From NCBI GenBank assembly GCA_038049695.1, contig CP142453.1:130955001-131019000 (forward strand): a stretch of 64,000 bases of DNA. Direction: 5' to 3'. The position numbers were made by a program, and so were the translations under genes. Under the pieces are notes generated by a model. That model did not search any database. It was not told the origin of the DNA and worked only from the letters and a program-made list of their open reading frames with translations. The DNA is from Cinnamomum chago. Taxonomy: Eukaryota; Streptophyta; Magnoliopsida; Laurales; Lauraceae. Below, piece after piece: positions 8,274 through 57,766 of this stretch (its first letter is position 1; each line of letters starts with the position of its first letter).

Positions 8274-11200
8274 TCACTCTCCGAATGCGGGCAGATAGAA
8301 TAACTTGTACGCTTCAATGACTTCTAAATGCCACATTGCTTCCCGGTCTGGGCAAGATGAAAGGTCAACAATTTTATGAACCTGTGTTGCAAATTGAAAA
8401 GGCACTCAGACTTGAACTCATCAGAAGATTCATAGTAAAACGGCATCCATAATTTGGGCATTAGATGTTTGCTAGTATCATGATTGGTATGCTGCATGTG
8501 CCAGGGCAATATTTATGGGTAAGATAAAACCTTTGAGGTGGGCTCCAGTGCTATCCAGCTAAAAAAAAAATGCCAAATTACTCATCAACCAGGCCAGTGT
8601 GCAAAATGAACAATAAGCCGCTGTCTGAATTTGTTATACATGCTCGGTCAGTCAGATGAGTGGGGCAGCCTAAATTGTTAAGCAGGTAATCAGCACAACG
8701 GGCCTCATCTGATGCATGCCGATGTGGCCATGTGAAAATAAGTGCCGAAGAACCACACATGATTTTCACAAACCCATCTGGGACTGACAATCTCCAAGGA
8801 TGCTATTGTCTACTTGTGACATGATCATATAACATAAATAAAAGGCTTATGCCACTGTCTTTTCTTCTCTGTGACTTGCAATTCAGCCCTATGGCAAGGT
8901 CAGCCACTCGGCATGACTAGACATTGCCCGTTTCACCAGGATGCCTGTCATTTTGAATCCTGTAATGTGAGCAGGGGAAAAATAGTAATTGCATCCATGC
9001 TTAAAGAGCATCTATTTTATCTCGTTACTCGCCTTTACTGGCATGTTGTGTGTTTTTGTCCCGCTTTCAGTGATCTGCCACCAACTCCTTATCACTGTCT
9101 GTTCCATTGATAGTGTAGATATGGGGGATTAAAAGAGAGAAAAACTAAGGAAAAGAAAAGGAAGGGAAGAGTTTGAGAGAGCACTCTCCCCCATTTTACC
9201 TTACAATACATCATTATATATAATTGGGTTTATTAAATCTGAATAACAGACAAATGTACATCTAGTCCTAACACCTTATCTCTCACGACCCCTCCTATTT
9301 GGGTGGTGGCTGCTTTTTTGTGGGATCTTTCCCAGCCGCTTCTCAGTATAGCTCTTTTATACGATAAAGCTTTTGATCAATAGAAATTACCATTTAAAAA
9401 AAAAATGTCAACAACATTAGCAAAAGTAACTTCAAGATCAGCTTAACTGCAAACGGACATCCAGTTCCATCGGTATATTCAAATGCTTCAATGCTAAGAT
9501 GCCCATGAGATGCCCTGACCTGGGACCCGCTCAAATCTCAAACTTCTATCAATGAATTCAAGACGAGCCCGAGGGAGTAGGAACATACATATATTGTTTT
9601 CTACTTCCTTCGCATATGCAATAGCAGGGAATAGATGAGAGGCATATAGGCTTGTCTACCAATCTATGCAATAGCATCTCACCATTGCTAAATGCTAAAC
9701 CAAAAGTTATGGTTTTGCATATGCATCATTTAATAGGTTCAGAGGTGATGAAGGATAGGACCTCAGGCCACATGTGTAGGGCCCAAGTCAATTTAGGACT
9801 TTTTATTTCACTAATTATCTGTTATTAGTTTCTAATTTTATTTAAAGAGTTGTAATTAGGATTTGGTTTAGGGCACAAGTTTTCTTTCATATTTTCATGG
9901 CATTGTAGACATGGATTTTTAGAGTTGAATAATAGAATTGAGATTTCCTTTTGAGATGCATCCTTGTTTATGGTCTTTGCGGGGACGTGTAGTGTTTGCG
10001 TCTGCAAACACATGATTTGGCACTTTCATTGTGCTTCGGCAATTTCCACGCAAGCCCTAACCTTGAGGCATGTATCAAAAGGTTTCAGCTCGTGATCTAT
10101 CACCGCACATCTTTCAATACCTTTATATGCAGGACCCTTCATGAACTTGACATTGAGCACACCACTCTTCATAAGCCCAACAATTAAATTGGTACTTCCA
10201 GACTAACCGACCATCATTACCAAGGTTGTACATTAGGACAAGGACTAACTTCCATCAGCCACTACCATAATTACCAACATGTCAAAGCCATTTGCACAAA
10301 TTACCATTCTGATGGACCAAATACCCAATCCTCCTAGCGTACGCACTCCCCCAACCCCCAGGTAGCCTTAAGAAAAAATACAACACTAAAAAAAAAGGTA
10401 TCCATGATGATATTTAGTATTATTTCACATAAAATCCACGTTAATTCTTTTGAGATCTTTTGAACAGTCATTGGACAACAAAAGGCTGGCTAGCTCAGAT
10501 TTTATCAAAGCAATCCACCCTTCAAACAATATATAACAGCTCCTCTAGGTCAATAACTTCTTCTCAAAACGCTCATGTTGCAGGTCCCAACAAAACAAAC
10601 AGCAATATACTTACTCTACACATGAATTCACACTTATTGTAGTTGATTATAAGTATCTCAAATCATCACAAAACCACTTAGATATTCCCCACTTACTGTC
10701 ACTCAGCATTACAATAAACAGTTGTATCATTGGCAAATTAAAGATGCGGTCTTGATTTTCAGATTACCAATTGAAAACCACTAGGCAAACGCAAACCAAA
10801 TTCCTTGGCTTTTGCTAACATGTAGCATAGAGATTTAGCAACTATCCTAAAGAAAATAGATGAACAAGTGCTGCCATGCCAAAGGCCACAGAAGCTTTGG
10901 AAAAAACCTTTATGAGACAACTGATCGTCGCAAAGAAAAACTACGAAGAGAAACAGACCACCCATCCATGCCACCACTCTTCTCCATAGCTCATTAAACG
11001 GAGTAACCTAAAAACTACAATCAATCATGCCATGAAACTTCCCAAAGTCAGGCTTGTTAAGAAAATCTGGCCTTCTTCCTTTGTATCTGGAATCTATAGC
11101 TCTATACAATCATTGGAAAATAGGATATTTTCAGTCCAGTTACACCTCAACAGAGGCACCTTACTCGTCAAAGATGATAATACGTAAATGCCTTCTTAGT

Positions 11201-14200
11201 CCGACAGAAAGCACTTTCACTAAGATTTGTATGCACTCCAAATAAGACTTACAGTATTGAGAATCCCTCATCACAACCACTCATTTCTTTAAGAACCATG
11301 AAACTAAAAGAAACTCCTACATCTTTGGACAATGACTCTACAAAAAAATTCATGCAAGACATCCTGCCACCTGTTGAAATTTTGGGGGGGAAAATCCATG
11401 GGAAACCCATCCAATCCAAGTGCACGTTTGCCACTAATATTTTGGGGAAAAAAGGAAAGAAAACATACACTCACCTTCTCCTCCAAGGGACTACAAAATC
11501 TAAGAGGTAAAGACACTTGCAGACATACTGAGATGAATTCCACGCCTTCTAGAGATGACTACAGATGATTCTCCTCGGGATACAAAGATGCATAAAAATC
11601 CACTCGCACTCAATATCAATTATCAACACTACTCTTTCAAAAAATACCCCTATCTTCCAAAGCTTGGACTAACAATTGAAATTTGTGTTTCATAATTTCT
11701 CATCAAGTTCCAATATTATGGCGTTTAACATGTACTTGATGTGATGAATCGAAACATAGTTGGACTTAATGCTTTGGAAAAACAATGATGATGTATTTGC
11801 CCATGAATCGGAATGGTTCAGAAGTAGGAAAACACATCAGGGAGATACAGTTTTTCCAATTTTTCCACCCCAAATCAATATAAAATTTTAGTGATATGAA
11901 AGGCCTAAAAACAGCATCCACCTATTTTAGTTACTGATTACTGGGCTACCAAATGGACAAAGGGGTAACTTTCCATTCTACCAAAACACAAAACCACTTG
12001 TGAAATGCAGGGTACATCATCATCATCATCATTGAAGCCTCATCCCAGCTCCATCTAAATGCAATGTTCCTATCCCAAAAAAAAAAAAAAAGGCCTTCAT
12101 TAGAGAATACAGATTATTGTTCTCGCTATTTAATTCATCCTGCACTTGCACTTTCACTCATGAATCAGAATAACTTCATACATATGCTCCACGTGCATTG
12201 ACATGTTTCTATTGGACTAAGACCCTTTATGTCAATAATACAAAACTTGTCTTTGTGGGCATCGTTTCATTCCACACAAGCACAAAAGAAAGAAAATGGT
12301 ATGCAACGATGAGTTTGGATGCCCACTAAAATGCATATCGTTCAGTGTTCTACGGAATATATGGTTGTTCAGGAAATTGTAAGACCCCGATGAAGCGCAC
12401 CTGGTGTATATAAGGCCCCTATCATCCACTTGCCTTTCTAGTGGTTACATGACATGTTTAGTTACACATTCATAAGGATGTACCATGCGCATCCTCTTCA
12501 TTATTTCTTGTTTTTATTTATTTTGAGCATATTTAATACTTTGACTGGTTAGCTGGGAATTTAAGCTACGTGGGTGCTTCATATATTTTTTACTTAATCT
12601 ACAATTAAATGGTAGGATTAATACATCTCAAGCAAAGATCAGTAGACAATATGTGTTTTAAGCTATGATGCATGGATACGGCAAGGACACGTCGTAGACA
12701 TGGCAGGGATACGGATTTTACACATAAAAAGTGAAGTATCGGATATGATACGACACGATACGTTGCCCATTTTGAAGTATCCGTGCATCATAGGTTTTAA
12801 GGCTGGTTTATCCCATGCAAAATGTAAGTATTCGATCGGATGGGGTTGGATATTCATACTGTTGCTTTATTGGAGTGATTATAGTTTCTTCTTCAAAGGT
12901 TAAGAAGTGAAACATAACCACCATTAAGCACAAAATCCTGGCCTTGGCTTCATGTTCACATGATTTCCCATGACTTTCCCCTTTCGAATATCTGCTTGAC
13001 CCATAGTGGCATGGGGGAACTTGCATTGCAATCGAGGGAAATCCTAAAGCAATATTCGTCAACCACATCATATGTGAGATTCAATCATCCCCAATCCCTT
13101 CCACCCCCAACTCTTCTCTTCCCTCCTGGCCTTGGTTTTTTGTTCAGCTAGCTTTCCTTCGGTTTCTCTTCCAATGTTTGCTCCCCCCATATTTTTCTGT
13201 TTTCGCCTAGTATGGCTTCCAATCTTCTGTTTTCACGTGTTTCAAGGTACGTCCAACTCCAACCATAGGTTTCAGGATGTGGGGACAAACCAAATGCACT
13301 ATAATTAGTAAATTTTGAATGTCATTTCATTTGCGCTCAAGTGTGAACATGAAATGAATGTGGCAAACAGGGAGCAAGTAGTATTGGAATCAAATACGCC
13401 GGTTCGGGCCAATTCCTAATAATCCAGCATACATGTGATGTGCCAAACATCTCCTTGATTAAATGTTATAACTCACCAAACCCACACAAAACGCAGTAAT
13501 CAGAGCTCAGGAGAAAACAAAAGAAAAGGAAGTTTGAAGTACCTTGATGAGAGGTGGATCATCCACACGAATGACAAGCACTCCAACGACCATTACATAC
13601 ATCCCTACACAAAATCGAGCCCCAAAAAACAAAAATGCTATCAAGTTGAGAATCTCAGTTCTTCCTACGCAAAATCGAACCCCAGAAAACAAAAATGCTA
13701 TCAAGTTGAGAATCTCAGTTCTTCCTACGCAAAATCGAACCCCAGAAAACAAAAATGCTATCAAGTTGAGAATCTCAGTTCTTCCTACGCAAAATCGAAC
13801 CCCAGAAAACAAAAATGCTATCAAGTTGAGAATCTCAGTTCTTCCTACACAAAATCGAACCCCAGAAAACGAAAATGCTATCGAGTTGAGAATCTCAGTT
13901 CTTCCTATTGATGATTTGGGGATGTGGACGATCAGATTCAGACCTGACTTCCACTCATGTAGCCGAAACTCGTTCGACAGGGAGAGCTCGACAACGCTGC
14001 TTCCATCGTCTAAAATGAACTGCCCTTCCTCCGAACCCGACACCAAAACGCCCTGCACTGCAAAAAATCAAATATCGTAACGGAGATGAAACCTTAAAAA
14101 ACATCCGTTCCTAACTGAGAAGAAAAAATGAGTAAAGAACGAGTACCTGCAACCAGGCGCGCTGGAATAGGATGGAGCCGATGGTCATGGCGGATGAGGA

Positions 14201-14272
14201 GGAAGGGGTTTGGCGGGCGTGCTTGAGCTGCCCGCAGAAGAGCTTCAGAGCCGCCAGGTTAAAATCCATCAT
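8274..14272 (-). CDS. RMI2: RecQ-mediated genome instability protein 2 (RMI2)
   Basis: Four exons: 14272-14147, 14052-13944, 13604-13543 and 8381-8274, giving 134 aa. Visible blocks are MMDFNLAALKLFCGQLK, FQRAWLQ joined to GVLVSG, ILDDGSSVVELSLSNEF, EWKSG joined to MYVMVVG, PPLIK joined to VHKIVDLS, and REAMWHLEVIEAYKLFY before TGA. This matches the plant RMI2 family in order and length. RMI2 is an OB-fold protein that binds RMI1 in the RecQ helicase-Top3 complex, which dissolves double Holliday junctions; that role is family knowledge. All introns are GT-AG and the phases agree. Intron 1 ends in tandem acceptors (GCAGTGCAG); only the second keeps frame. Intron 2 (13943-13605, 339 bp) is a stop-free 60-bp repeat array. 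Intron 3 is 5.2 kb and holds LINE remnants. A second ATG at 14269 could also start the protein. The product is clear; the exact start is less so. Confidence 0.9.
9108..9272. repeat. Possible LTR fragment in RMI2 intron 3
   Basis: A purine-rich stretch (GAGAGAGAAAAA-like, then AAGGAAGGGAAGAG) is followed by a TATATATAATTGGG box and an end reading TAGTCCTAACA. This is the composition of many plant Copia LTRs. No partner LTR, primer-binding site or coding region was found, so the call is tentative. Confidence 0.25.
9290..9406 (+). mobile_element. LINE 3' end remnant
   Basis: The stretch ending CTTTTGATCAATAGAAATTACC and then TTTAAAAAAAAAA looks like the 3' UTR and A-tail of a plant L1-type LINE. 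The coding part upstream is absent. It lies in the last intron of RMI2, in the sense opposite to the gene. Confidence 0.35.
10750..11545 (-). pseudogene. LINE reverse-transcriptase remnant in RMI2 intron 3
   Basis: On the minus strand, RALGLDGFPMDFPPQNF at about 11390-11440 resembles the K(A)xGPDGF motif that opens plant LINE reverse transcriptase. Further along, GLWHGSTCSSIFFRIVAKSL at about 10830-10900 is a decayed form of the [15 protein letters not shown] motif. They are in the right order but in separate frames with stops between, so the element is dead. It has the same orientation as RMI2 and helps explain the 5.2-kb intron. Confidence 0.6.
12664..12794. mobile_element. Small MITE with TATGATGCATGGATAC ends
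   Basis: The left end TATGATGCATGGATAC is matched in inverse by GTATCCGTGCATCATA at the right end, 131 bp in all. The interior contains repeated GATACG words. Related ends occur at about 24929-25286 and 35308 in this window, so it is a family. It lies in RMI2 intron 3. No coding capacity. Confidence 0.55.
13605..13906 (-). repeat. 60-bp tandem repeat (5 copies) filling RMI2 intron 2
   Basis: Five almost identical 60-bp units follow one another; several are exact copies over the full unit. On the gene strand each unit contains CTCAAC (a plausible branch site), a T-rich run and TTTTGCGTAG, a plausible acceptor. The copy next to exon 3 ends TTTTGTGTAG. Because the unit is 60 bp and has no stop on the gene strand, the array is open through the intron. 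The plus-strand frames are open too, which creates the ORFs of 125 and 178 codons seen there; these are not genes. Confidence 0.9.
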
Positions 14273-21400: not shown

Positions 21401-24400
21401 ACCCTTATATTTCCTGGTAGCTTTTAATGAATCCATTACTGTTTCATAAAAAAATGGAGAAAAGATTAAGAAAGATTAAAATTGAGTCTATCACATCCAA
21501 TTACCCCAAATCTATCCACACCTAACCCACAACCTGCACAGAGTCACATAATATTTGCACTTTTGTCTTTAAAAAATTATTATGCGGTTGATTGTTTAGC
21601 AAGGTTTTGATGACTTAGGCTTCTTACATCAGTTATATTTTATTATTCACACAAACATTTACTTTTTAAGTGACCGTCTTGCTGAGCATTTTTGCTGTCT
21701 TCTGATTGTAGATTCCAAGAAAAATTTTTGTTTTCTGGCCGTGGGTACACCTGAGGAAAGAAGGACATGGCTTTATCAATCACAAAAACTTGTTTCAATA
21801 TGCTCATTTATTCTTGCTGAGTGTGACAAGACCTGCTCTTCTGGCCGAGACAAACTTCTGCTTACGTCTCTAGCAATGCAATTGGTTGTTGCTTTAACTG
21901 ATCCAAAAGGTTGGAAAATCATTAACAACGTGAATCTTAGAGATGCACATATTGCAGTAAAGAACTTGATACAGTTTATCACAATAGGAAAAAGTGGTCT
22001 TTACAGCTGCATTAGGAGCTATTTTATGAGGGTTGATGTTCAGATCTCTTCACAAGGATTGGGTGTACAGACAGATGATCATTTATTGATTACTGCAAGT
22101 GCCATAACTTTAGCTTTGCGTCCTTTTCATCTTATGAGGCTTGATATAAGTGATGTTGGCCTCTTGGACGTGAAAGAAGCTGCTGAGCAGTACTGTACTC
22201 ATTTTCTTACAGTTCCTTGGCTTGCTAAACGCTTACCAGCAGTTCTCTTGCCTGCTTTGAAGCATGAGTCTGTATTATCACCTTCCCTCAAGATTCTAAT
22301 GGTATGGCTATTAAAAAGCACAATGAATTTTCAAATATTCTTGATCTCATTCAATGAAACTTTTAGCTGTAAATTTGTCAAGTTCTTGACAAACTGTATT
22401 GTAGTTGTAAGTATGATTTCAACTTCCAGCTTGCAATTGGTTACTAACTGTGGATGGTGTTCTGTACAATATACATTCTAATTCCGTGTTAACATTAGAA
22501 TGAAAGAAATAATTAGTGGGTACGTTTCATTTGCAAATTGAGGAGTTTTGAGAATGGTGTTATCTTGTTTTTATTTTGTGTTTACTTCCTAACTTATCTT
22601 ATGATATAACATAGCCCCGATTTGAAAATCAGGCTATCGTACCTAAACAGCGAATCCCGATTGATCAAAAATCTGGATTAACAAACAAATCAGGAAAACA
22701 ACGAGTGAAAGTAGAAGCCAGATTAGCCCAAATCGCTAATCCTCCACCTAATTAATCTTTAATCCTTGAGAGAAGCACTCAAATCAATGGAGAAGAGAAA
22801 CAATTGCAAAAACCATGCGAAATATTATCGAGAAAATATCAAAATATTCAACTTGGGGTTGCATGTCTCACATGCTTATGCTTTTATAATGTTCCCCATA
22901 AAATAAAGACTAATCTACTTTTAATCCCAGCCATCCATCCTATCTAACTAATAAAGAAAGATTACTAAAATAAAGTCCTTATTACAATTCAATAATGTGA
23001 TCAAAAGAAAGAACAAAATGAGAAAGCTTCTAAAGAGAATCCTTTATGACTTGGATGTCTGATGAGGAATTGGTCTCATTTCCTTCTTTTATCCTTGCCT
23101 CTTGGATTTTAGAAAATTTCCCAACTCTTGGATATTCCTTGGAAAGTTTCCAACTATCCTCTAGCTCATAGGAAATCATTGGGATGCCACATTATGACTA
23201 AAGGCCTAATCAATCACAGGATCCATGAAATCTAGGCCATTCGCTCTTGTGTCACGATGAAGCATTAAAAAAAACGATAATCATGTCTCCCAAGTATATT
23301 TTCTTGGAAAATGTTCTCCTACAAGCAACAGAATGCCGGAAAATGGACGGGTGGCTTCGTCATGGGCTCATCCGTGATGGGTGGCTTCGTCATGGTGTTG
23401 CTCATAGGAGAAGATTCTCCTATTTTCTTTAGGTTGTTGGTTATTGCTTTCTCAGTGTGAGATCTTGCTCCGGGCGGCACCCTTAACCATGGGGTGTAGT
23501 GTGTCAACCACGGGCTTCCAATGGTGAGTCTTCGCTAGTCCCGCATCGAAAATAGTCTTGACCCTGGGCTTATAAGTAAAACCCTGTCTTAACTCATCAT
23601 GATGCGTTTTAAATCCGTGCGCGGTTGGATCCCATAAGAACTTCGGAGTTAAGCGTGCTCGAGCAGGAGCAATATCGGGATGGGTGACCTCCTGGGAATT
23701 CCTCGCGATCACGTGGCCCAAAGTGAACAATATTGGGCTGAGTTGGGCGGGAATGTGACAATTGGTATTAGAGCCAAGGGCAGCTCTATTTCTGGTGGGG
23801 GAGAGTTTGAGATCTTGGTCTGACCATGGGTCGTAGTATGTTAACCTCGGTTTCCAACGGTGAGTCTTCGCCAATCCTACATTGGAATTACCCAAGTCCT
23901 GACCCTAGGCTTATAAGTCAAATCCTGTCTTAACTCAACATGACTTTAAAGCCGTGCGGCCCCAGATCCCATAAGAATTTCAGAGTTCAGTGTGCTCGTG
24001 CGGGAGCAGTACCGGGATGGGTGACTGCTTGGGAAGTCATCGCGTGCTCACGGGGGCCTAAGCAGACATATCAGGCTGAGTTGGGCGGGGCTTTGACAAT
24101 TGGTATCAGTGTTGATGACGACTCTATTTCCAGTGGGGGAGAGTGTGAGAACTTAGGGCGTAGCGTGTCAACCATGAGCTTCCAACGGCGAGTCTCCGCT
24201 AGTCCCACATCAGAAATATTCAAGTCCTGACCTTGGGCTTATAAGTCAAACCCCGTGTTAACTTAACATAACGCGTTTTAAAGCCGTGCGGCCCCGGATC
24301 CCATAAAAACTCCGGAGTTAAGTGTGCTCGTGAGGGAGTAGTACTGGGATGGGTGACTGCCTAGGAAGTCTTCATGCGTGCACGTGGGCAAAAGCGGACA

Positions 24401-27400
24401 ATATCATGCTGAGTTGAGCGGGGTTGTGACATTCAATAGATGTGAGAGGTCTTCCAATCATTAACCTTGGATGGTACTACAAATGTTCCTCACTTTCCAA
24501 CAGAGGTCGATGGAGCTGATCACATTCTTTCTCCTTGTACACAGTTGGATCATCACATTGTCTGTAGGGATGGGAATGTGTTTAGTTTGTACAAGCGGAC
24601 TCTACCTGAACCTGCTGTAACACGGGTTTATGATTTGCAACATGAAGCCTCCAACTTGATGGTTTTATGATTTGGGATATGAAACCCGCCATGCGACTGG
24701 ACATCTAGTAGTCTGTTTAGATACTAGATAATTTTTATTGCAAAATAATATATTGATAATAATAATTCATTTTTATATTTTATTTTGCATGTAGGAGTAT
24801 TTTGACCCACAACTGCTCAAACTCGTTTAGGTTCTTCTACCCATTTCATTACAGTATATGTGTGTATATATGTATGTTTATATGAACACATCTCCTTCAT
24901 ATATTTCCTTTTTTTACCACATGTGATCTATGATGCCCAGATACAGATATGGATACAAACACTGATATGGGGATCGGGGATACGACTCCTTACGTTTGAA
25001 CATATAGGATACGGATACAGATACGGGTGTCCTAAAGTTTTCTTTTGATCACTTTTGGATCTATGAAATTATCATTGTTTTCGTCCATTTGTAGCTTCGT
25101 TTTATTTTTATTTTTTATGGTGAGAAGTAAAACTAATAAAAGAACTATATAAAATGAAGGACTTTATAAGTAGGATATGTTAAACTTGTTCTCTAGAAGT
25201 ATCAATGTAGTATCAGGTACCAATACAAGTGTTGTATCGGTCCGATACGGATACATTTGGCTTGTACAAGTATCCAAGTATCATAGCATGTGATTCTTTT
25301 GATCTTCTTACTGCCTTGGATAGTTGGATGTTGATTCATTTGCATACATATACATCTCCTTCATACACTGCCTCTTTTACCACTTGTGTCCATACTTTTT
25401 TTTTTTCTACAGTTTGTGATCCATTATTTCACCAAAAGTGGAAGATAGCTATGATTGATGCATTACTACTGAGAAAGAGGAGTAAAATGTCAAAGGATCT
25501 GGGACTAGGATGCTGGTTATTTAAGGGTGTCTTGTAGAATCATTTAGATTGTTCTTTTTCAAGCAGTCGTAATAGACATCTATGTTGCATTTTGAGAGGA
25601 AATGTTAAAAGGATTCTTACATGTATTGTATTGTTTAGCCCTGTAGGACACAAATATGTTATTGTGGAACCTTTATATAAAAGAAGTTGGAAATGTTAAT
25701 TTGTAAATGGATTATTTATGCTCCTGTCTGTTTTTTAGCCACATTTTGCATCCTAAAACATGTGGGAACTAATCAAACAATGGCAGGTGGTGGCAGATTT
25801 CGAAGGAAAAAATCTTTTCTGATATGTCCAAACTGGGGCCATCAGGGGTACCTAGTTATAGTTCTGAGCTTATCCCATGTGCTGGTTGGGCTCTGGCCAA
25901 CATCATAAACTTGGCAGCGGAGTATGATAATGATTCTGGTCTCCCCGGACATTTTGTCAGAGGCCTAGATTGTGGTGTTTATGTTCTTGCAGTAACCACC
26001 CTTTCAGAGAACTTGATGCAATGGCTTGCAAATGTTAGACAAATGCAGGAGAATGATGAGGTCCCGTGTGATGAATCCACAGAGACTGTTCATCTTGATA
26101 ATTCTCTAGGGGATGCTGCTTTTGGATCTATTAGAATGTCATACATAGAGCTTCTTAAACCTTTACATCAGCAGTGGCATCTTATGAAGCTTCTGGCCGT
26201 GGTGAACAAAGATGTTCTTAGTAAAGAAGAGGCAGATATTTTTCTTGCAAATCGGAAGCTTGAATATTCAGAAAAGTTGGGATTTGTTGATATTGCAGTC
26301 TTTTATTCATGCATATTGCAAATATTTTCTTCACTCAATCCCTTGGCCGGTTCATTGCCAATTCTTAACATACTATCCTTCACTCCGGGGTTTCTTGTTG
26401 AGCTATGGGGTGTGCTAGAAAGTACCCTCTTCAGTAAAATAGGTCATTTTGCCGAAGGCACTCGTGCAAATGTAATTTCTGGGAGTCAGGATGTTACAGT
26501 CCTGGAGAAAAAGCAAGGGCGGGTCATGAAAGATGCAGGAAGTAAATGGGTGTCTGTGTTACAAAAGATCTCTGGTAAATCATCATCGACAGAGGTGGAT
26601 TGTTCCCATGCAATGGACCCGCCAAGGCATCCAGTGAATGATGATGCTTATGATTATTGGGATGTTGAGCCTTTGAGACATGGTCCTGAAGGTATTTCTA
26701 AGGACGTAGCTCGTCTGCTGCATTTGTTCTGTGCTACTTATGCACACCTGCTGTTGGTTCTTGATGATATAGAGTTCTATGAAAAGCAGGTAAAATCCAA
26801 TGCTGGTTTGCTAGCTCGATTCTCAAATTTTTTGGCGTGTTGCAACTAGGCCTGGTCTGGTCCACTAACCAGCCTCCTTTGGGGGCTGTATATGAGCTGA
26901 ATCAACTAGCCTTTTGCCTTGTCCTGTGCCAAATTTCTAGACCTATTTCTAAATAGGTTATCTGGTCCTCTGTTTGCCTTAGGCCTGGAATGGTGGTCAA
27001 TGGGCTGGTCTCTGGGTTTACTTTCAGGCTTGTGTTTTGTTTCTGGTCTTGAATAGTTGACTTGGTAAATAAGTGGCTGGATTTGGCATGAGTCTGTTGG
27101 CCTTTGAGCTAGCCTGGACCTGATTTCTAGATTGATAGCTGAATGGGTTTTATGCAGGATGTTTTATTTAAGGTCTGAAAAGATGGCACAGCTCAGCTTT
27201 GCCGGACTTTTTTACATAGTTTATCTGGCTCTTGGCTAATGAGCTTGGTCAGGCCTTTCATGCTTGTTGGACTGGTAGTTGTAACTCTACTTTTTGATGT
27301 TTCTAAATATCTACCTATCTTGCTGTGAGCTAGGTACCCTTTGTGCTCGAGCAGCAGCGAAGGATTGTGTCAATGCTAAATACCTTAGTGTACAATTGCT

Positions 27401-30400
27401 TCTCTTATAACAACGGACAACACAAGGGACAGAACAGTAAACCTTTAATGGATGCAGCAGTGAGATGCCTTCATCTGTTGTATGAGAGGGATTGTAGGCA
27501 CAGGTTTTGTCCTCGTCCTTTGTGGCTTGCACCTGCTAGAAAAAATCGGCTTCCAATTGCTGTTGCTGCCAGAGCTCATGAAGCTGTATCCACTAATGTA
27601 CGCTTTGGGGATACCTTAACCAATCCATGCTTGGGTTCTGTAATCACAGCAATTCCACATGTATTTCCATTTGAAGAGAGGTAACTTTTACAAGAAGTTC
27701 TGAAGAATCTAGGATTGTTTGCTTATGACAAAATGATGTGGTGTTTTTAAGTTTTTTTTTTTTTTATACCATATTTGTAGGCATTGACATATATATATAT
27801 ATATATATTTGTCTCTATATGCATGCTTATGTGTTTGTCAAGTATCTGTAGCAATGCGGTTGATTTTTGTTAATATAATTTTGCACATTTCAAATTGTGA
27901 ATCACACCATTTGACGTGTAGGACCTAGTTCGGACGGCTTGCAACACAAAAATAACATAGATGAGATGATCATAATTATTCGTACTTTCTTTTAATGGTT
28001 CTATTCAACAAGAGCCTGTAGCTTAGTTGGATGGTGCTCAGTGTCGCAATTATGATGGTCAAGTCTCAAGTCAAATTACCCATTTATTAAAAAATATATT
28101 CCTTTTCTTTAATAATGTTAACATGCATATTTTTTTGAATGATGACTTTATAAATGAAGAATGCAAAAGACAATATAAGTGAGATATGCTGAAGCCCCGA
28201 ACAAAACAAAGAGAACCAAAAACATTAAAAGGTCAAAGTTGAAAGATCAATAAGGAAAATCCCTTTGCATCGAAATGGATAAGGTCTGACTCCCTGCATC
28301 CTCCATAGCCAAGGGTTCAACAGCTTTCTTAATGTGAGAAAAGGCTGCCACATCAGCTAGCCTCCAAGGTGACTTGCTCATGCCTGAAGCTTACCTGATT
28401 ACACAGATTCACCCTCGTAATGAATATTGAGGCGCCGAGCTTCCTGAAGGCCTGTCCTTAAGGCTAGCATTTTTACTTCATTATCTGTGCAACTGTCCAC
28501 TGGCTCAAAGAAGGACAAAGTACAAAGTTGCTGCACTATCAAGAATAACACCACCTTACCTGTGGGTTTCAGGTCACCGACAACGCTACCATCAAAATTC
28601 AGCTTAAAGAAGCCCTCTGGAGGTGGGATACAATTGAAGTGGGGTGAGATAAATGAGAGAAGGCCACCTCCTCCGAGTTCATCAAAATGGAAGAAATGGA
28701 GAAGTCCATAAACTGTGGAGGGATTGACACCCATGATGCAACAAGAAACTTTCATCAAAATGGAAGAAATGGAGAAGTCCATAAACTGTGGAAGGATTGA
28801 CACCCATGATGCAACAAGAAACTTCACCTTTCCCAGCATGTTTTCTTTCAAAGAGGCCCTACCTTAAAAGCAACACGCATTGCGCATTTCCCATATCACC
28901 CATATAATGGCCAAAGGAAACTCTCCACATAGTCTTACCCCTAGTCAAACCATCTGACATTGCCCAAGCTTCAAATAGCTGAGTAACTGGTTTGGGGAAA
29001 GCCCAATTGCATCTGAAGCATCTTAACACTGAGTTCTGTAGGAAGCAATCAATCATGCACTTGACTCTTGAGGAACAAATGGTCCAGTGATTCTGCATCT
29101 TGCAAGCACATAGAACAGATGTTCACAATGTTGAGTCACGGCGATGGACATTATCCACAGTAAGAATGCTCCCCCTAAGGGCTGACTCTCCTGAACGCTA
29201 AAACCATCAAAGGGGCTTTGACATGCCAAAGTCACCTCCTAGGCATGGTTTAAAAAATCGGCCGAGTCCGAGTCGACTCGGACTTACACACACACCGAGT
29301 TGGGTCCTATGGGACCCAGACTTGAAATCATGTGACTCGGCTGACTTGGCCATGCCGCCATAGGACTCAGCCCTCTTGAACATTTTATTTGAAATTGGAA
29401 CTCGGCTGAGTCGACTCGGACTTGGCCATTGCTGAGTCGGGTCCCGAGTCCGATTTTTTAAATGTTGCTCCTAGATGAATCTGGGATAGAGCTTGTTGCT
29501 AGAATCATGTAAAGAGAAGAAACAAAGAATAAGCCATCCATCAGCAGTGCACACCTTGTGGCCGCTACCGCTGCTGGGATATACACTCTGGTGAAGCATC
29601 CAACATAGCTGCTGGGATATACACTCCGGTGAAGTATCTAACATAGCAAAGGGCCGGCGTTCCTCTTCCTATGTTAAACTCCTTCTGAAAATTGGACGCC
29701 AAGTGATTAAATCACCTGATTTGCTCATGTAACTTTGCTCCATGGACCGTGGATACCTTGTGCAATGAAAAAGGAAAGGGAACTGACTAGCTAAACTTTT
29801 GTCTCCCACCTAGGTATCTAACCAAAATTTGATATAATCATTTGTACTAATGCGAAATTTGATGTTCAACATAAATGCATCCTTCACTGACATAAGACCC
29901 CTCCAAATACCAGATTTCTAAGAATTATGATTAGGAATGTCCCACCCTTCTCTACTAAGCCCATATTTAGCTGTGACAATCTGCTTCCGTACACCTTCAT
30001 GATCATCCCTTAGTCTCCATAGTCATTTGTCCAAAAGTTCTTGGTTCATCAGTCTGATAGGTCTGAAATCCAAACCACCCTCCTTGTTGAACTTGCACAA
30101 CGAATCCGAGGCCACAAGATAATACTTCCATTTGTCCTCTCGCCCATGCCATAGGAAGTTGCTTTGGAATCTTTCAATCCTGCATGCAACCACCACTGGA
30201 CACTTAAACAGCGACATGTAGCATGTTCAAAGGTTAGATAGGGCCAAATTTATGAGGGTGATCCACCCCCTAGAAATAGATACCTCGATTTCCAAGTCAC
30301 CTATCTTCTCTCCATTCTTTCAACCACGGGACTCTATCCATGGAACTTTGGAAGCCCTTCCTAAAGACAAAGGAAGACGAAATAAGTTGTCAGGAGAGTG

Positions 30401-33400
30401 CTTGCTTTACAGACCTTAAGGTCTGTCAACCTCTAAAGGAAATCAAATCACAAACCCCAATAATCTCGCTTTTGAAGAAGTTAACCCTGAGCCTGGAAAC
30501 CGGGTCAAAACACAGCAAGGTAGCCTTTGCATTTTTTTATCTCATCCTCCGTCGCCTCAAAAAAAAAATAAGGATGTCATGTGCAAATTTATGATGGTTG
30601 ACGGAGAGGTCATCCGTAGCCGAATTAAACCCAGAAATAAGCCCAGCATTCCCTGCAGCTCTTATCATCTTGCTGAGAGCCTTCCTATTAAATAGGACAA
30701 AGAGGAAGGGGGACAAGGGGTCACCTTGACACAAACCCTTTGAATGAGAAAGAAGCCTTTTATAGGGACCTATTGATAATGTTAAATCTTAACGCGTATA
30801 GATATAAATTTGGATCTTGCGTGGAGATCATGGTGTTTGATACCATATCCGCTCCAATAGATATGCGTATCTGTGTCCTTGTAACAGACTTCTTGCTTGT
30901 TAGCACTCCAAAATGATTCTGTCGTCTTACTAGATCAGATCTATTGTTTCTTGCGCCTTGTGTTTTCCTAGTTCCAACTGGTAAAGGTTGAGTACAGTTT
31001 ACCGGATTAGAAGAAAGTTTATGCAGCTCAATCCACATCCATGGACATTGATCGAGAAATACAAGACATTGATTGAGCATTCAAGTATTTGGATGGTCAT
31101 GATCGGAATGGGCCAAGTCCCCATAACCATGTCAGGGGCTGTTTTGACAAACAGTTATAATGCAGGGCTTTTTCTGTAAATTACAGGAAACTGCAGAAAA
31201 AATACAGCAGACATGCTACAAAAAAAAAAAAAAAAAAAAAAAAAAGAAGAAGAAAAAAGTAAAAAGTAAAAGAAAGAAAAAAAGAGGTTAGCCCAAGGGT
31301 CCTCATAACATGTGCCAGGTCGGCCAGGTGAGACCCACAGAACTGAATGTCCATACGGCCTTGAATGATCCTGGATTTGATTCTTTTCCTTCAACTTTCC
31401 TGCATTCAAGTAATTAGAGATTCCCTATTTTATTTAAGTAGATATTTGATGAGTTGGGTAAGGATTTGAGTTTAATCTAAAGATTTTTAGGATTTAGAAG
31501 CTCTATATACATAATATTGTTGGATTGTTATGGGTTTTCTCTGACTTTTCTGATTTCAGTAAGTTGACAATTTGAACAATTATTCATTGATATTGTTTCT
31601 CTCCTTGGTCGAATATCATTCCTTGGTCTAATTTAGGTTAGGCAATTTAATTTATGCTCCATGTTATTTCTGATTTTCTGTAATTTCTCGGGATTTTCTA
31701 TAAATTGTGGGCTTGGGTTTCACCAACGGTCCAATTTGTGAATCAGGACTACATCAAAAGTTTACATTTTGTTTTGTTTATGTGATTGCAACAGATCTTC
31801 ATATAACAGGTGTATAGTATCTCCAAGACTCCAAGTGCCTAATAGTTTCTATTTTTATTTGCATTACAAGCTTGTGCTTTTAGTGCCTAATAGAAGGGTC
31901 TTAAGAGTTTTTACTTTAAAGACTATTCCCTTCACTCTAACGTAATTAGGAACAGGAGTGCGCGGCTCTTTTTGTAATGTGTTGTATGCTCTTTTATTTT
32001 ATTTTTGTACACTATGTTTATTTATTTTAGCAATTTTTTTATTATAGAAAATAATCATGTAGATATTATCTAAAGCACTTGAGCATCCTTTTTTTGACTT
32101 TTAATTTTTATTTAGGCACTTGACTACCACTACAGTGGGTTGTATTCAAAGCAGGGTTTTAAAAATCAGTTGCACCTTTTTATAAGTGACCGGAGAAGTC
32201 TCATTCCAAGTTGGCTGAGTCTGAATCTGAGTCTAAGTCGGCCAAGTCCCATTATAAAGGGCTTCTTTTGCAAGGTTTATGGATCCTGAAGGGGACTTGG
32301 TCGGACTCGACTGAGTGGCATGCGACTCTTTTGCTTTACTCTACTTGAGGGGGACTGAGTTGCCCCTGAAGACTGAGATTTTAAACCTTGATTCAAAGTA
32401 GCCTGCAAGTTTAAATGGTTCTCGAAGTTGTAATGCTGTAGTTGTGACTAAATACTTGCCCTTCCTATAATTCGGTAGTTAGCTTATGCCTTCCATCAAC
32501 CCTAAATTGTGCTTATTTTAATGAGATGTTCGTACTTTTTGCAGAGTTCAGATGTTTAGAGAATTTATCAAAATGGATAAAGTTTCTAGAAGAATGGCAG
32601 GTGAAGTGGGAGGGCTTTGCCCAGGTTCAATAGAGATAGTAATTCGCCGGGATCATATCGTTGAGGATGGATTTAGACAGTTAAACTCCCTTGGATCAAG
32701 GTTAAAATCAGGTATAAACGTGTCATTTGTTAGTGAATTTGGCCTTCCTGAGGCTGGACTAGACTATGGTGGATTGTCGAAAGAGTTTTTAACTGATATA
32801 TCAAGGAAAGCCTTTGATCCTGAGTAAGTTTAAATGTAAATTTTTTATATTTTCTTCTTTCACCGTTTAAAATTTTCTAGACATTCATACAATTTCAGAA
32901 AGTCAGTTATTATTATTATTAATATATTTTCATTGGCATAGGTATGGACTATTTACTCAGACCTCAACTTCAGAGAGACTCTTAATTCCTAATGTCACTG
33001 CAAAATTGGTAGAGAATGGCATTCAGATGATTGAATTTCTGGGACGAGTTGTTGGCAAAGCACTTTATGAAGGAATACTACTGGATTATTCTTTTTCACT
33101 TGTTTTCGTGCAAAAGCTTTTAGGCCGTTATAGCTTTCTTGATGAGCTATCAACACTGGATCCTGAACTCTATAGAAATCTGATCTATGTAAAGGTAATT
33201 CCTACAACTGCAAACACATTCTTTTTATTTTTATTTTTCGGCTTCAGTTCTTTTCTCATCACTTCATAATGTTCTTGAATGTTATAAGTCAATGTTTTGC
33301 TGCTAGTGAAGTATGATATACTGGAGCTTGTTAAGCAGTCATAGACTGTGACTTTGGTTTGGTTGGGGCTAATTTGATAATGGTTGTGGTCAAACTCTAT

Positions 33401-39400: not shown

Positions 39401-41354
39401 TCTAGCTCTTTCCCGAACTTTTTTTTATTGCTTCTTTTTCAGATTGATTGATCGTTAGGACTTGCTAACTTTTTTTGTGTTATATTCTGCAAGTTTAGTC
39501 AGAACAGAAATTTCTAATTAGTATTTTCTCCAGAACTTATACATCACCTGAAATAATCAAATACATATTTTTCTAGTAGAGCGAAACATTTATGAAATTT
39601 ATCCATCATTAGTCTACTTTAATGCTGGAGAAATTGGAGAACAACTTCCATGAAAATGCCACCTTTAGAATTATGGAGTCCTGATTCTGATTCTGGTTTT
39701 CATTACTATATTGCAAGATATCTTGATTCCTCGCTGTTATGGATATAAATAATTTGTAAATGCTAGACTGTTAGCCATAGTAGTTTTTTGGCAGTCCTTT
39801 GATTTAATTACTGATGTCTATTAAAATATGCAGTTGCTTTCAGGTGGAGAGCATGACATTGATGTCCTGGATTTAAGGAACAACACTCGGTATACGGGTG
39901 GTTACTCTGACGGTAGTCGTACTATTAAACTATTTTGGGAGGTATTATCCCCACAGATGATTGGCTGAACATTCTTTTGTACTTATTTGTTCTATTTGCT
40001 GTCTCCTTTTGAATGGCTCAACTACATGTTGGAATGCATGGAGCATTTTAGCTTCATCATTGTTTTATACCAATCAATGCACTAATAAGCATCCAGCCTC
40101 TCATTTTCATATAGATTGTTGCTTCCTGATTTTTCTTGCACCAAAGGGAAAATCCTTTTGTGCATTGCTGGTTGTGCTTTTTTCTTTTTTACTATTAGTA
40201 AATAGATTTATAGAGCTTAAGGAGGTAAATAACCTGTGGCCTTTGGAACGTGCGTGCTTTGGAATGAAAGAGAGTGTTATTTTGTGTTCTTACTTTTCCC
40301 CCATCCTATTGCGATATTGCAGGTTATCACAGGATTTGAATCGAAAGATCGTTGCATGGTGCTAAAGTTTGTGACTAGTTGTTCTCGAGCTCCATTGCTT
40401 GGATTCAAGCATTTGCAACCTACTTTTACTGTTCATAAGGTATGATATTTGTCTAAATTTTTAGTGAGATTTCCTTGCACTATCACCTTTTGTTTGCCTG
40501 GAGTTATTATTGTCAAGTCAGACAGGCAATGGATCCCAAAAGCTTAAGTTAGAAAGCGGAAGACAAATCTACTCAAACCCTTCCGTCTCCCAGTGGGGGA
40601 GAGTGTAAGGTCCATATGATTGTGACCCACCCTGAAGAAGGGCATCTGTTGGGGTTTCCTCTGGCACTTGGGTTTGCAATGTATAGAATTACATGAGTCC
40701 CACATCGGAAGTAGACAACTCCAAAGCCTGCGCTTATAAGGCAAACCTCGTCTTAAGTCACCATGACACGTTTTAAAGCCGTGCGGTCCCAAATCCCATT
40801 AAAATTTTAAAGTAAGCATACTTGTGCGGGAGCAATACTGGGATGGGTGACCACTTGGGAAGTTCTCGTGCATGCACGTGGGCCAAAGCAGACGATACCA
40901 AGCAAAGTTTAGTTCTATGCCACTAAGTGGTTTTCAATTTTGACGGGATCTACCTGGGAAGTCCTCGTGTGCGCACGTGGGCTAAAGCGGCCAATACCAA
41001 GCAAAGTTTTGTTCTATGCCATTAAGTGGTTTTCAATTTTTGACCGGATCACCACACTCAACCTTCAAGCCCACTAAATTCTCTCTATAGTTTTTTCATT
41101 CTGTTAATTTTCGAATTTTGACTCAAGAGTCTATCTTCCAAAGTTACGGCCAATTATTTGCTTGATTTCTGGCCTACATAATTAGCAGCACATCATTTGC
41201 AAACCATGCACATAGAGGAAATTCATCTTAGGTCGCCTGCAAAGTCAGTTATAACCGAGGTAGATAGTTGGGGCTCAAAGGAGACCCTTGGAGTAACAGA
41301 CTCCAACTATGAACTTTATCATCTCATCCATAGCTCTTACACTCAATACCATCC

Positions 41355-46053: not shown

Positions 46054-47886
46054 CTACCAAAAGTCGCTGCAAGAACATGATCCATCTCTAAACCGATGGA
46101 ACCGATTCCTGTCCCTTAAAACGATTTCTCGATGGTAAACCCTTGAAACATCCTTCATCATGGTGTGACAGTCATTACACACGCGGAGGTTCTTCACTAT
46201 CCTTACACTCGTCGAAGAATGAGTGCTAATGAGCCCAAAAGCAAGTGCCAATTTCTCACTGTGAAGAAGGAGCGATTTTCGCTTCTCATCTTCCTCAATG
46301 TCAAGCAACACATCTGAGGTATCCATAACATACCCTGATTCCTCTAACTTCAGCACGACTTCCTCCACCATACCATAGATTTCTTCAAACCGGGGATGTG
46401 ACCTGTCGCCGGCTATGAATTCATGAATCACACCATTCACCTCTATAAAACTACATCCGGGAGTTTTCCTAATCGCGCGTTGTTTCATCAATTTCCTCAC
46501 CCTAGCAACATCATCCCATCTATTGTTATAGGCATAGATATTCGAAAGTAGCACATATGTAGCGTCATTATATGGTTCTATCTCCATTAAATGACCAGCC
46601 ACATGCTCAGCCAGCTTTACTTCCTTAGGATTCCGACGGCAAGCACTCAGCATAGAACCCCATAAAGCCGCATCCGGCTCCAGTGGCATGGTCTCTATGA
46701 ACTCAATTGCTTCACTTAACATCCCCGCCCTACTAAGGAGATCGGCCATGCAACTATAATGCTCTGATTTAGGCACAATTCCAAAATCTCTAGTCATGCT
46801 AGAGAAAATGCGACGGCCTTCATCAACCAACCCTGAGTGGCTACACGCAGATAAGACTCCTAAGAATGTGATGCCATCAGGTTTCACACCCTCTTCAATC
46901 ATATTTGAGAAAAGAGCGAGAGCATCACCACCGTGCTCACACATTGCAAGCCCTCTTATCATGACGGTCCAAGACATCACATTTCTCTCACACATTTCAT
47001 CGAACACCTTGCATGCGAGCTCAATACACCCACACTTTGCATACATTTCGACCAAAGCAGTGCCCACAAACACATCCAACCGAATCCCGTTCTTTATGGC
47101 ATAATCATGTATCCACTCACCTGCATCCAAAGCACCCAAATCAGCACAAGCACTCAACACGCTCACAATGGTTATCCCATCTGCCCTCACTTCCTCTCCC
47201 TCTATTTGAAGCATTTGATCGAACAACTCCAAGGCGTGTTTGGAGTGTCCACTCTTCACGAACCCCGAAATCACAGCATTCCACAAAGCAACACTGGTTG
47301 TCGTATAAGGACATTTCACAAACACCAGGTGTGCAGCTTCGGGATCTCCGCACGCGGCATAAAAACTAATGAGGGCGGTGCTTATATGGAGATCGGAAGA
47401 GAGCCCGTGTTTGAGCAATTGAGCATGAACGCTTCTCCCTCGGTGGATGGAGCTGAGGTGCGCGCAGGCTTTCAGAACGAAGGGAAAGGTGTAGGCATTT
47501 GGAACGACGGGGCTCTCGAGCATCTGGGCGAAGAGGAGGAGGGACTGGTGGGGAGCAGAAATTCGAATGTAGCCGCGGATCATGGTGTTCCAGGTGAAGA
47601 TATCTGGGCCGTCGATGCGGGAGAAGATGGAGAGGGCGTAGTCCATAGCGCCCACAGGGGAGAGGCATATGGAGGTGAGGAGCTTGCTGACATGGCGCTG
47701 GTGTTGGGTCTTGATCATGTGGGCGTGGATTTGCTGGAGATGTTTGGTGGTCTTGCATTGGTTGAGTAGGGAGAGATGAAGTGGTTGTGGTGTTTGGCTG
47801 TTCGATTGTGATTGTGATGTGTTTTGCTCAAAGGGTAGAGGAGAGGGATCGAATTGAGGAGAGGCTGACACTGAAATTGTAGCCAT
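46054..47886 (-). CDS. PLS-class pentatricopeptide repeat protein, E/DYW type
   Basis: A single-exon gene of 610 aa. About a dozen PPR units (WNTMIRGY, NAYTFPFVLKAC, GTALVEMYAKCG, SWTVMIRGLA, GITFLGVLSACSHSGLVDEG) span residues 60 to 440. The E region follows (WGSMLSACR, YVLLSNIYAYNNRWDDVARV, GCSFIEVNG) and then a full DYW cytidine-deaminase domain. The zinc and catalytic signature is present: HSE at 542-544 and CNDC at 570-573, with a second set H574, H597, C604 and C606. The C-terminus is DFW instead of DYW. The family edits C to U in organelle transcripts after binding RNA through the PPR array. The Ser/Gln-rich, acid-poor N-terminus fits an organelle transit peptide, but plastid or mitochondrion cannot be told. 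Long antisense ORFs on the plus strand are shadows. Confidence 0.93.
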   Translation of the reverse strand: MATISVSASPQFDPSPLPFEQNTSQSQSNSQTPQPLHLSLLNQCKTTKHLQQIHAHMIKTQHQRHVSKLLTSICLSPVGAMDYALSIFSRIDGPDIFTWNTMIRGYIRISAPHQSLLLFAQMLESPVVPNAYTFPFVLKACAHLSSIHRGRSVHAQLLKHGLSSDLHISTALISFYAACGDPEAAHLVFVKCPYTTTSVALWNAVISGFVKSGHSKHALELFDQMLQIEGEEVRADGITIVSVLSACADLGALDAGEWIHDYAIKNGIRLDVFVGTALVEMYAKCGCIELACKVFDEMCERNVMSWTVMIRGLAMCEHGGDALALFSNMIEEGVKPDGITFLGVLSACSHSGLVDEGRRIFSSMTRDFGIVPKSEHYSCMADLLSRAGMLSEAIEFIETMPLEPDAALWGSMLSACRRNPKEVKLAEHVAGHLMEIEPYNDATYVLLSNIYAYNNRWDDVARVRKLMKQRAIRKTPGCSFIEVNGVIHEFIAGDRSHPRFEEIYGMVEEVVLKLEESGYVMDTSDVLLDIEEDEKRKSLLLHSEKLALAFGLISTHSSTSVRIVKNLRVCNDCHTMMKDVSRVYHREIVLRDRNRFHRFRDGSCSCSDFW

Positions 47887-50852
47887 TGTCGTCTAAGAAA
47901 AAGTCTCTGTGGCCCTCATGGGGACCGGGCCATGGTTCGGTCCCCATATTCCGGCCACATAGCACCCCTGGTCGTCTAAATGCTATCGATCCCTTTTATA
48001 GAAGCTATAGATGCAGTTAACTGATAAATATAAATAGATAAAGAAAGAATACAGATCACCTCAACGTGGGAATGGAAAATCAGCTCATTTCTAAATCCTA
48101 TCATCTTCGTTCAGACCCACAAGTTTAACAATTTCCGCTCTCTTTAGATGGGGTGTGCAGCCTACCCAACGATTCAGCCCATTTGAATGGGTGCAAAACC
48201 CTATGGGCATGTGAAATTCGTGAAAAAAGGGTCTGTGGTCCAGTCGGATGGAGTATTAGTTGGGTCCCACCCCAATCGCGCATCTTAAACCATTCTAAAT
48301 AGATATATCATATACTTTCCAAATAGTAACAGCCTGATAAAAATCCAACCAGTTGAAAGTGGGAACCAGATCCAGCCTACTAAAAACAAAAGAGTTTTGG
48401 AGGCTAAGAATGTTAACATGGCTAGGCCTGTTAGACCCAGAAGCACGACCGGGTGCTCTTAAAGTGGACTCAGAAGAACCAATCTGAATTTGACTAAGTC
48501 TCATTGACATCCTTACCTGTAAACACCTGTACAGATGTCGCTATCACCCGACTTGGGTGGAAAATCCAAGAGTCCAACTTCTGTTATCAAGGCTTCAAAC
48601 ATGTGAGCAGAGGATTTTTAACTTTTTCTAAAAGTATCATTTGGTTTGAGAGTTTTCTAACATCACTCAATTCATTGGCTAAACACAAATATAATCAAAT
48701 TAAGGTCCTAAATTCTTTACTATTTACTTGATCTGCCTCTAAAATTTTTTAGTTATCTAAAATTTTTCTAATGAGTTTTCATATTTATTATAAATGATAT
48801 ATTAATATTTATTTATAATTTATTTAAATATTTAAAAATATTTTTAATTATTTCTTTAATCATGCATGCCAGTTGCACTAGTTACAATCATAAGCAAACA
48901 TGCTCTTGATGAATACAGTCAAAAGGTATTCAAACCAAGAAATCACCTTAAAAGGTGGAAACAACAATTGCTAATAGCACCCCCAACTTACTCGTGACAA
49001 GATGCTGCAGTATTCAGAGGATGACAAAAGGGCCTCCAGCACTGGTTCCCCAAACCGGAACCAAGGCAGCAAAATGTCATTTTAGGTTACTTGAATTTTT
49101 AATTGGCTTCCACAGTGGGGCTCACAGGCTAATCCTACCAAATATTGAAAGAAAATTAAGGAGAAACACTTCCACAATGGGTCACACTGATTAATCTTAA
49201 TGAATATTGAAATGAAAATAAAGAGAAAAAAGTAGCAAAATACAACCCACGAAAGTGACCCCGTAAATTGTGAGTTTGGAAAGAGAAAAAATCTAGCTTT
49301 CATAATAGGACCCCATAGATTTATTTTGTTAAATTAGTAAATGTAAATGATAAAAAAAACTCTGATAAAAATGATATCTCATGAGAGAAATTTTAGGAGA
49401 AGATCAAGTACATAGTAAAGACTTTAGGACTTTGATTTGATTCTATTTGTGCTTAGGCATAAATTGAGTCTCATTTCAAAATTTAGGGTGGATTTTGAAA
49501 TTAATTAGCTTCCACAATGGTCCCACGGATTAATCATGCCAAATATTGAATGAGAAATAAGGAAAAAAAAAGTACAAAATACCAACTACGGAGGTGCCTT
49601 AGATTTTTGCAACTTCAATTTGACATGAGGGTCCCACAAATTCATCAGCAACAAAATTTAATACATATATGCCCACCTTTATTAAAATCATGGCCAACTT
49701 GATCATTATGTTTTTCATCCGCATGTAAGGCCCACTATGAAAGTTAAAGGGCATTTGTTCCTTCTTTTTTCCTTTTTGTTAGGAAAATGATTTTGGGATG
49801 GACCAATGAGCAATTAGTACATATGCTATGTTTTAGGGATGAATAGTGAAAAAATAGATAACTGTTCTGAAATTTGAAAATCCAAGAACAACTTTAGAAA
49901 ATGGTTATCCCCAGATTGTTTTGAGAATTTTTGCGGGTGAGCTCCTTACTATGCTTATAAGCCATGTGCCTATGACAGCTTGGAGAACAAAGCTCTTGCT
50001 TACAATTTACATCCATTTTTCCTACGGGGTTAAAAACACACGGAAAGAAAGTGCATAATGTATATAACACAAGAAACGTCCATTCAGAGCAAATGGAGCC
50101 TGCTGTATCCCGAACTTCGCCTATATAGCCTATAGGTCAGAAAACTCAAGCTCATGTGCAACAGTGCGAGACTGCAAGCATGTAATACTAATTCTTACTG
50201 CACCTTTAGAATAATGAAAATATGAGCATCATCTGTTACAGAACCAAAAGCTAAAAGAAAGTGCGTATCAACATAAAGAGGATTAGAGGAGGGATATATA
50301 ATTCCATGCATAATATTAAATTGGAGTCTATAAATCTCATGCTAGCTTGTTTAAAAGCTAAGGAAAGCTTTTTTACCAAAAAAAAAAAAAAAAAAGCTTA
50401 AAAGAAGCCAAAGCATGAAAATGTTAACCAAAATCTCCATTTCACAAATCCCAAAGCATATCACTCTTGAATTCAGCATAATATTCAAAAAGATCTCAAA
50501 GAAATTATATTTGAACAAAAATAATATACAAATAACACCAAGTGAAAAAAATTTAAGCAAAAGTTAATGGAACAATGCTCTCCTAGAAGCATACTGCATG
50601 TGCAGTCCAACTCTATGGGCCCACTTGGGCATTAGAATTTTAGGCAGTTAATCAATGGTTATGACAATCTGGTGGGGCTGATTTCTTGGCTTCCCATGTC
50701 TATGATGAGACCTTTCCATCTGCCTTCCTCTCATTAATAAATATGAATCTCAGTGGAGCCCGCAAGCTGGACTGCATATTACTAATATTGCCAGTAGAAC
50801 ATTGACCAAAGATTATGATATATATTAGAAACTACAAAACAACATGAATGCT
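47887..50852. other. Intergenic stretch upstream of the PPR gene
   Basis: No gene is recognisable. The first few hundred bases upstream of 47886 should contain the PPR promoter. About 49095-49620 holds three diverged copies of a 100-200 bp unit, marked by GGCTTCCACAGTGGG, ACTTCCACAATGGG and AGCTTCCACAATGGT followed by a TATTGAA(A/T)GA phrase. The rest is AT-rich. Confidence 0.5.
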
Positions 50853-57632: not shown

Positions 57633-57760
57633 TGCGAGAGGAGAAAAGTGGCTGCTTTGGATTCGGTAAAGATAGAGAGAGAGAGATATCGAATTGCATG
57701 TATGTATACCCTTTGCGCTTTTTGTCCGTTTGAGGCGTAGAACGAGCGGTCGCAATGGAA

Positions 57761-57766
57761 TTTATA
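57761..57766 (-). promoter_or_regulatory. Probable TATA box of the NRAMP gene
   Basis: TATAAA on the minus strand about 130 bp upstream of the preferred ATG. A (CT)n tract (about 57676-57687), common in plant 5' leaders, lies between. This puts the start site near 57730 and excludes the ATG at 57755 from most transcripts. Position and motif only; no direct support. Confidence 0.45.

Follow-up and report, generated by a model that had tools for sequence, protein, structure and literature searches.

The second intron of the Cinnamomum chago RMI2 gene (13605..13943, minus strand) is most likely, at a probability of roughly 0.75, a young minisatellite that would have arisen by duplication between TAGG tetramers, is normally spliced out and would see only low-level use of its inner acceptor sites. 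Within the window, by which we mean the whole stretch of DNA analysed (64,000 nucleotides), this intron spans 339 bp with GT...AG ends and no stop in the gene frame. It consists of a unique leader of 38 nt (13906..13943, -; donor CAG/GTCTGA, the slash marking a boundary here and below), five 60-bp tandem units (13606..13905, -), of which units 2-4 are identical, and a final G. TRF delimited the array at 13604-13907 (period 60, 5.1 copies, 97% matches, score 566), bearing out the 339-bp intron of five near-identical 60-bp units that an earlier, sequence-only reading of this DNA had described. The 28-mer at the unit start, with up to three mismatches, occurred five times in the window, against zero expected from 100 shuffles. 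With highly similar tandem units of 60 bp, inside the usual range of about 10-100 bp, the array qualifies as a minisatellite.

RMI2 is encoded on the minus strand by four exons separated by three introns, and translation of the spliced product gives 133 aa. Exon 1 (14147..14269, -; MDFNLAALK...AWLQ; donor CAG/GTACTC), assigned from its translation and the Pfam RMI2 match, is followed by exon 2 (13944..14052, -; GVLVSG...EWKS plus the first base of a G codon), exon 3 (13543..13604, -; GMYVMVVGVLVIRVDDPPLIK) and, beyond intron 3, exon 4 (8274..8381, -; VHKIVDLSSCPDREAMWHLEV...GE and the stop). Intron 3 (8382-13542, -) is 5161 bp long, far exceeding introns 1 and 2. The spliced protein matched Pfam PF16100 at 118.9 bits (cut-off 29.4 bits) in a single stretch covering profile positions 1-132 of 132, and all five of its PDB matches were RMI2 chains, which we take to be human. 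Both PDB alignments shown crossed the exon 2-3 junction free of any insert (KSG/MYVMVVG against VPGKYVMVMG), with a one-residue gap in the PDB-chain alignment three residues ahead of the junction codon. The canonical junction from 13944 to 13604 is predicted on protein homology, and normal RMI2 would be produced by splicing across it, with the whole array removed. Since the protein is conserved, removal of all 339 nt is suggested as the productive splicing choice. In the species' own assembly (1.06 Gb, 14 contigs), the gene and the intron 2 array were found at one location each within the limits of the search, and two further matches to the RMI2 protein were at chance level (E 8.0 and 8.6). 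A dispersed repeat or paralogous copy was rejected on the grounds that this search found array and gene once each. Searches of collections in which plants are not expected returned five pattern matches for the RMI2 protein among viral contigs, none of them confirmed, and no match for a 27-mer of the unit among genome contigs.

The two edges of the array read CATCAATA/GGAAGAAC and TTTGTGTA/GGGATGTA and share TA/GG, two bases on either side. The ancestral intron, some 99 bp long, would have carried TAGG twice, once inside (AATAGG) and once across the 3' splice site (GTAGG), and a microhomology duplication between these two tetramers would have copied the intervening 60 bp. With the tetramers 60 bp apart, the unit would end exactly at the acceptor, and because one TAGG straddles the splice acceptor, every copied unit would carry its own acceptor, together with its own pyrimidine-rich tract. 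Slippage or unequal exchange would later have extended the array to five units, the three middle ones still identical. Units 1 and 5 each show three differences from units 2-4 and four from each other. Minisatellites that grow from within have identical middle units and differing edge units, and the identical middle and diverged edges seen here point to such a later expansion from within. The recent expansion of an acceptor-carrying module, as proposed earlier, looks right. Overall, the array looks like an ordinary repeat expansion, and copy-number differences between alleles are a plausible prediction. In this explanation, the anatomy, the edge match, the pattern of the units, the single copy found and the best RMI2 match without the intron are observed, and we infer the sequence of steps, the ancestor with one copy and what splicing yields.

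A recent gain of intron 2 itself, by insertion or duplication and with the repeats as a by-product, is unlikely. The intron lies in phase 1, in the G codon before MYVMVVG. Arabidopsis RMI2 is described as having three exons and two introns (PMC5070779), against four exons and three introns here, so intron 2 may be a gain, and intron gain by tandem duplication is reported from potato (PMC4974935). Against this, the best match of the leader or unit to the flanking exons and the window (E up to 1) was a T-rich segment of just 15 bp (E 0.002), and the 3' junction reads AGGG, where the duplication model described as widely cited would expect AGGT (PMC4974935). A duplicated exon was rejected because neither leader nor unit resembled the flanking exons to any meaningful degree, and the AGGT duplication model because the array borders lack AGGT.

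The array carries a TTTTGYGTAG acceptor at all five unit ends, as had been claimed for every unit; the last G of the acceptor is the base that follows the unit. The canonical acceptor (13605..13614, -; TTTTGTGTAG/GGATGT), placed by protein homology across the junction, belongs to the last unit, and the other units repeat it; as the acceptor of unit 5 is the canonical one, the inner acceptors number four (units 1-4). Inner acceptor 1, at the end of unit 1 (13845..13854, -; TTTTGTGTAG/GAAGAA), would define a 99-nt intron and add 80 aa. It is followed by inner acceptor 2 (13785..13794, -; TTTTGCGTAG/GAAGAA; 159-nt intron, +60 aa), inner acceptor 3 (13725..13734, -; TTTTGCGTAG/GAAGAA; 219-nt intron, +40 aa) and inner acceptor 4 (13665..13674, -; TTTTGCGTAG/GAAGAA; 279-nt intron, +20 aa). 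The expectation of 20 aa per unit on use of an inner acceptor held as regards in-frame 20-aa steps, and is refined to four sites that would add 80, 60, 40 and 20 aa. With unit (60) and intron (339) lengths both divisible by three and no stop in frame, every splice choice is in frame: the predicted inner-acceptor proteins (153, 173, 193 and 213 aa) are all open, as is the 246-aa product of full retention, which agrees with the sequence-only reading in that the intron has zero stops in the gene frame and that either an inner acceptor or retention keeps RMI2 in frame.

Splice sites were scored with matrices of approximate plant frequencies, untrained on this species, that give a rough ranking only. 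On these matrices the acceptor of unit 1 scored 6.38, those of units 2-4 3.94, the canonical acceptor of unit 5 5.41 and that of intron 1 8.30. The inner acceptors thus come near the canonical one, and among all 7473 AGs scored across the window they fell within the best 0.3-2.1%. The donors scored similarly, at 3.14 for intron 2, 3.25 for intron 1 and 3.63 for intron 3. The 3' end of intron 1 (14058-14053, -) offers two AGs with an offset of five bases (TTGCAGTGCAG/GGC). Each is among the best 0.2% of AGs on the same approximate matrix, and splicing at the upstream AG would lengthen the product by 5 nt, with a frameshift. The branch-point consensus in plants is YTNAY. TTGAT in units 2-5 fits it, whereas unit 1 has TCGAT; CTCAAC, which had been named as branch-like, is not the best match. 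A length of 99-279 nt is sufficient for a plant intron, and purine-rich sequence such as the GGAAGAAC that follows each inner site is enhancer-like. RNA structure hiding the acceptors was rejected, as intron 2 with 20-nt flanks folded no better than shuffles (z -0.04; 46 of 100 shuffles at least as stable). The four inner acceptors look usable, and a low-level ladder of isoforms from them is plausible. If the intron is a minisatellite that is normally spliced out, they would probably be used at a low, unregulated level, and some leakage to them, without function, is to be expected.

Heavier leakage, with the four inner acceptors competing with the canonical site and a sizeable share of the mRNA gaining 60-240 nt, is rather unlikely. 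It would place inserts in 20-aa steps before the conserved OB-fold strand, most of them non-functional, and the repeat number would set the dose of good RMI2. The high rank of the inner acceptors, the adequate intron lengths and the enhancer-like sequence after each inner site all speak for it, and inner acceptor 1 outscores the canonical site on the rough matrix, so that substantial inner-site use could occur. As all the inner-acceptor products are in frame, nonsense-mediated decay should not remove them, and the one-unit-longer isoform reported for the ABCA7 VNTR sets a precedent (PMC5954066). On the other side, the acceptors of units 2-4 fall below the canonical one (3.94 vs 5.41) on the approximate matrix, and damage to RMI2 by the insert is an assumption, the +20-aa form still matching the Pfam RMI2 profile at 107.3 bits in a single stretch. 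The profile scan of insert forms took in the +20, +80 and retained forms; the +80-aa form scored 104.4 bits and the retained form (+113 aa) 104.0 bits, in two stretches each. All of these are far above the cut-off of 29.4 bits, so the scores place the insert just before the conserved MYVMVVG and destruction of the protein does not follow from them. Together with the nearby gap in the PDB alignment, they suggest that inserts near the junction may be tolerated. A partial retained frame, without exons 1 and 4, matched RMI2 at 22.4 bits over residues 4-42. That the array acts as a length-variable, in-frame acceptor cassette, yielding isoforms longer by 20, 40, 60 or 80 residues with the repeat number tuning working RMI2, is very unlikely. 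If it were true, the isoforms would be invisible to nonsense-mediated decay, and a repeat array would affect the amount of a protein that itself keeps repeats stable, Arabidopsis RMI2 being reported to guard the copy number of rDNA repeats (PMC5070779).

The open frame of the array is close to chance expectation and is weak evidence of anything more. When the one-copy 99-bp intron (leader plus unit 5, ends fixed) was shuffled, its frame was open in 19.7% of 20,000 trials, and a shuffled 60-bp unit in tandem was open in 29.8% of 5,000 trials. Three of the six frames of the real unit are open, two of them antisense, compared with an average of 2.14 of six from shuffles. Having five copies adds nothing independent to this, since copying an open unit leaves it open. 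An open one-copy intron (0.197), a remainder of 3n length (1/3) and a unit of 3n length (1/3) would coincide with a probability of about 0.02 if independent, a mild coincidence that was picked post hoc. Across the array on the opposite strand run two stop-to-stop ORFs of 180 aa (13538-14080, +) and 150 aa (13459-13911, +), which an annotation pipeline could mistake for a repeat protein.

Variation among the units gave no sign of coding constraint, judged on only five variable positions. All five are C/T on the gene strand, and four change the amino acid while one is synonymous, a count that covers few sites and compares units rather than species. A single transition can be made in 60 ways in the 60-bp unit (38 non-synonymous, 21 synonymous, one stop), and with 38 of 60 non-synonymous, four non-synonymous variants out of five show no constraint. 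Three of the five variable sites (23, 35 and 57) stand in a CpG context in one of their forms, which would fit the decay of methylated cytosines. The stop-prone CpG (CGA, unit position 49, where C-to-T gives a stop) is unchanged in all five units; this is what coding selection would give, though it counts for little with units so young.

An exitron or newly coding repeat, in which a regulated isoform would include the translated array and selection would act on it as protein, is very unlikely. Intron 2 resembles an exitron in being a stop-free intron of a multiple of three in length (339 bp, zero stops) with splice signals, and exitrons are reported to have 3n length in about half of cases (PMC4484396). 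The intact CGA in five of five units also speaks for this reading, as does the retained protein, in which the two halves of the RMI2 domain are both present. Exitrons are also described as having weaker splice sites than other introns, a trait on which the approximate matrices gave no clear separation (donor 3.14 vs 3.25 and 3.63 in introns 1 and 3; acceptor 5.41 vs 8.30 in intron 1). Known exitrons, however, are described as alternatively spliced stretches within annotated coding exons, richer in G+C than introns are (PMC4484396), whereas intron 2 is an intron by homology and by composition. Its G+C is 0.389, compared with 0.351 and 0.389 in introns 1 and 3 and with 0.602, 0.541, 0.468 and 0.435 in exons 1-4. 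The mainly synonymous substitutions of exitrons also find no counterpart here (one of five synonymous), and by homology the full-length protein is the spliced rather than the retained form (118.9 vs 104.0 bits). The suggestion that the intron could become coding or is exitron-like is not supported, in view of the intronic G+C, the four of five non-synonymous variants, the near-chance open frame and the RMI2 match, which is higher and unbroken once the intron is removed.

For the frame running from exon 2 through the intron into exon 3, the best of five AF2 models showed repeated strands over the array, with block-mean pLDDT of 57-85 across residues 51-150 and below 50 in the exon parts; the other four models had mean pLDDT of 27.9-35.4. 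An antisense-frame control of the array gave no structure (mean 40.8), a result that counts on the side of a coding array and that does not by itself prove the array model false. AF2 is reported to yield confident false beta-solenoids on perfect repeats (PMC11795689), so the strands were given no weight and, with four of five models poor, were set aside as evidence of a folded insert. The insert encoded by the array is moderately hydrophobic: the unit mean was 1.16, and no 19-residue window within the most frequent unit type exceeded 1.46, less than the 1.54 of spliced RMI2. In the retained frame the highest such window (2.12) lay across the boundary between unit 5 and exon 3. The array peptide in the gene frame, GRTEILNLIAFLFSGVR, is a candidate marker of a translated array.

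Splice-site minisatellites have been published from human genes, so the kind is already known, and the RMI2 array is a candidate acceptor-side, in-frame member of it in a plant. In the human ABCA7 intron 18 VNTR, the unit begins with a splice donor and gives an isoform one unit longer (PMC5954066). The two are alike in being minisatellites at an exon-intron border that hold a splice site in the unit, an extra unit of which can enter the mRNA. The ABCA7 unit is described as a frameshifting 25 bp with a donor, present in up to about 427 copies and with a splicing change shown on RNA (PMC5954066), whereas the RMI2 unit holds an acceptor, is 60 bp long and in frame, and is described here from DNA sequence. 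Minisatellites at exon borders of human duplicated genes are likewise reported to give rise to alternative splicing, and many of their units are in frame (PMC2812944); they share with the RMI2 array an expansion at a splice border, in-frame units and the ability to alter splicing. Those repeats are described from recently duplicated, polymorphic families with transcript support (PMC2812944), whereas the RMI2 array belongs to a plant gene of which the genome search found one copy, and was read from DNA. Polyubiquitin UBC is reported to splice in steps of one unit through AGGT sites (PMC10809524); its in-frame units with a splice site at every border, and its isoforms stepping by one unit, recall the RMI2 array. 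The UBC repeats, however, are coding, and their AGGT serves as both donor and acceptor (PMC10809524), whereas the unit borders here read TAGGAA or TAGGGA, have no AGGT, and the TAGGAA boundary could serve only as an acceptor.

The array offers a clean natural case of a minisatellite that copied a splice acceptor in frame, and the choice among near-identical acceptors could be read from an mRNA ladder. An intron that would have grown more than threefold would also show how introns of its type can be tolerated. The consequence for RMI2 biology is probably little: the feature is real, its function had been over-read and its interest is modest unless an RNA ladder exists.

Judged by its genes and introns, the window reads as plant DNA, and several other features were recorded in it. 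Tandem repeats of 332 bp (2.8 copies, TRF) occupy 23492-24431. 5S rRNA-like segments at 24269-24382 and 40769-40879 (the second place extending over 40769-41050) score slightly above the Rfam threshold, and may recall 5S-bearing Cassandra-type TRIM retroelements. A near-perfect 73-bp tandem duplication (28678-28824, 98% matches, TRF) lies within a 154-aa ORF, and a 105-bp tandem repeat (63413-63808, 3.8 copies, 70% matches, TRF) within a 262-aa ORF (63076-63864, -); neither ORF had a Pfam match at E 0.001. Pfam also identified a frame with a partial HECT ubiquitin-ligase domain (32871-33269, +), an uninterrupted frame for a PPR-DYW protein (46054-47892, -) and an Nramp-type transporter in two open frames (55256-57761, -).
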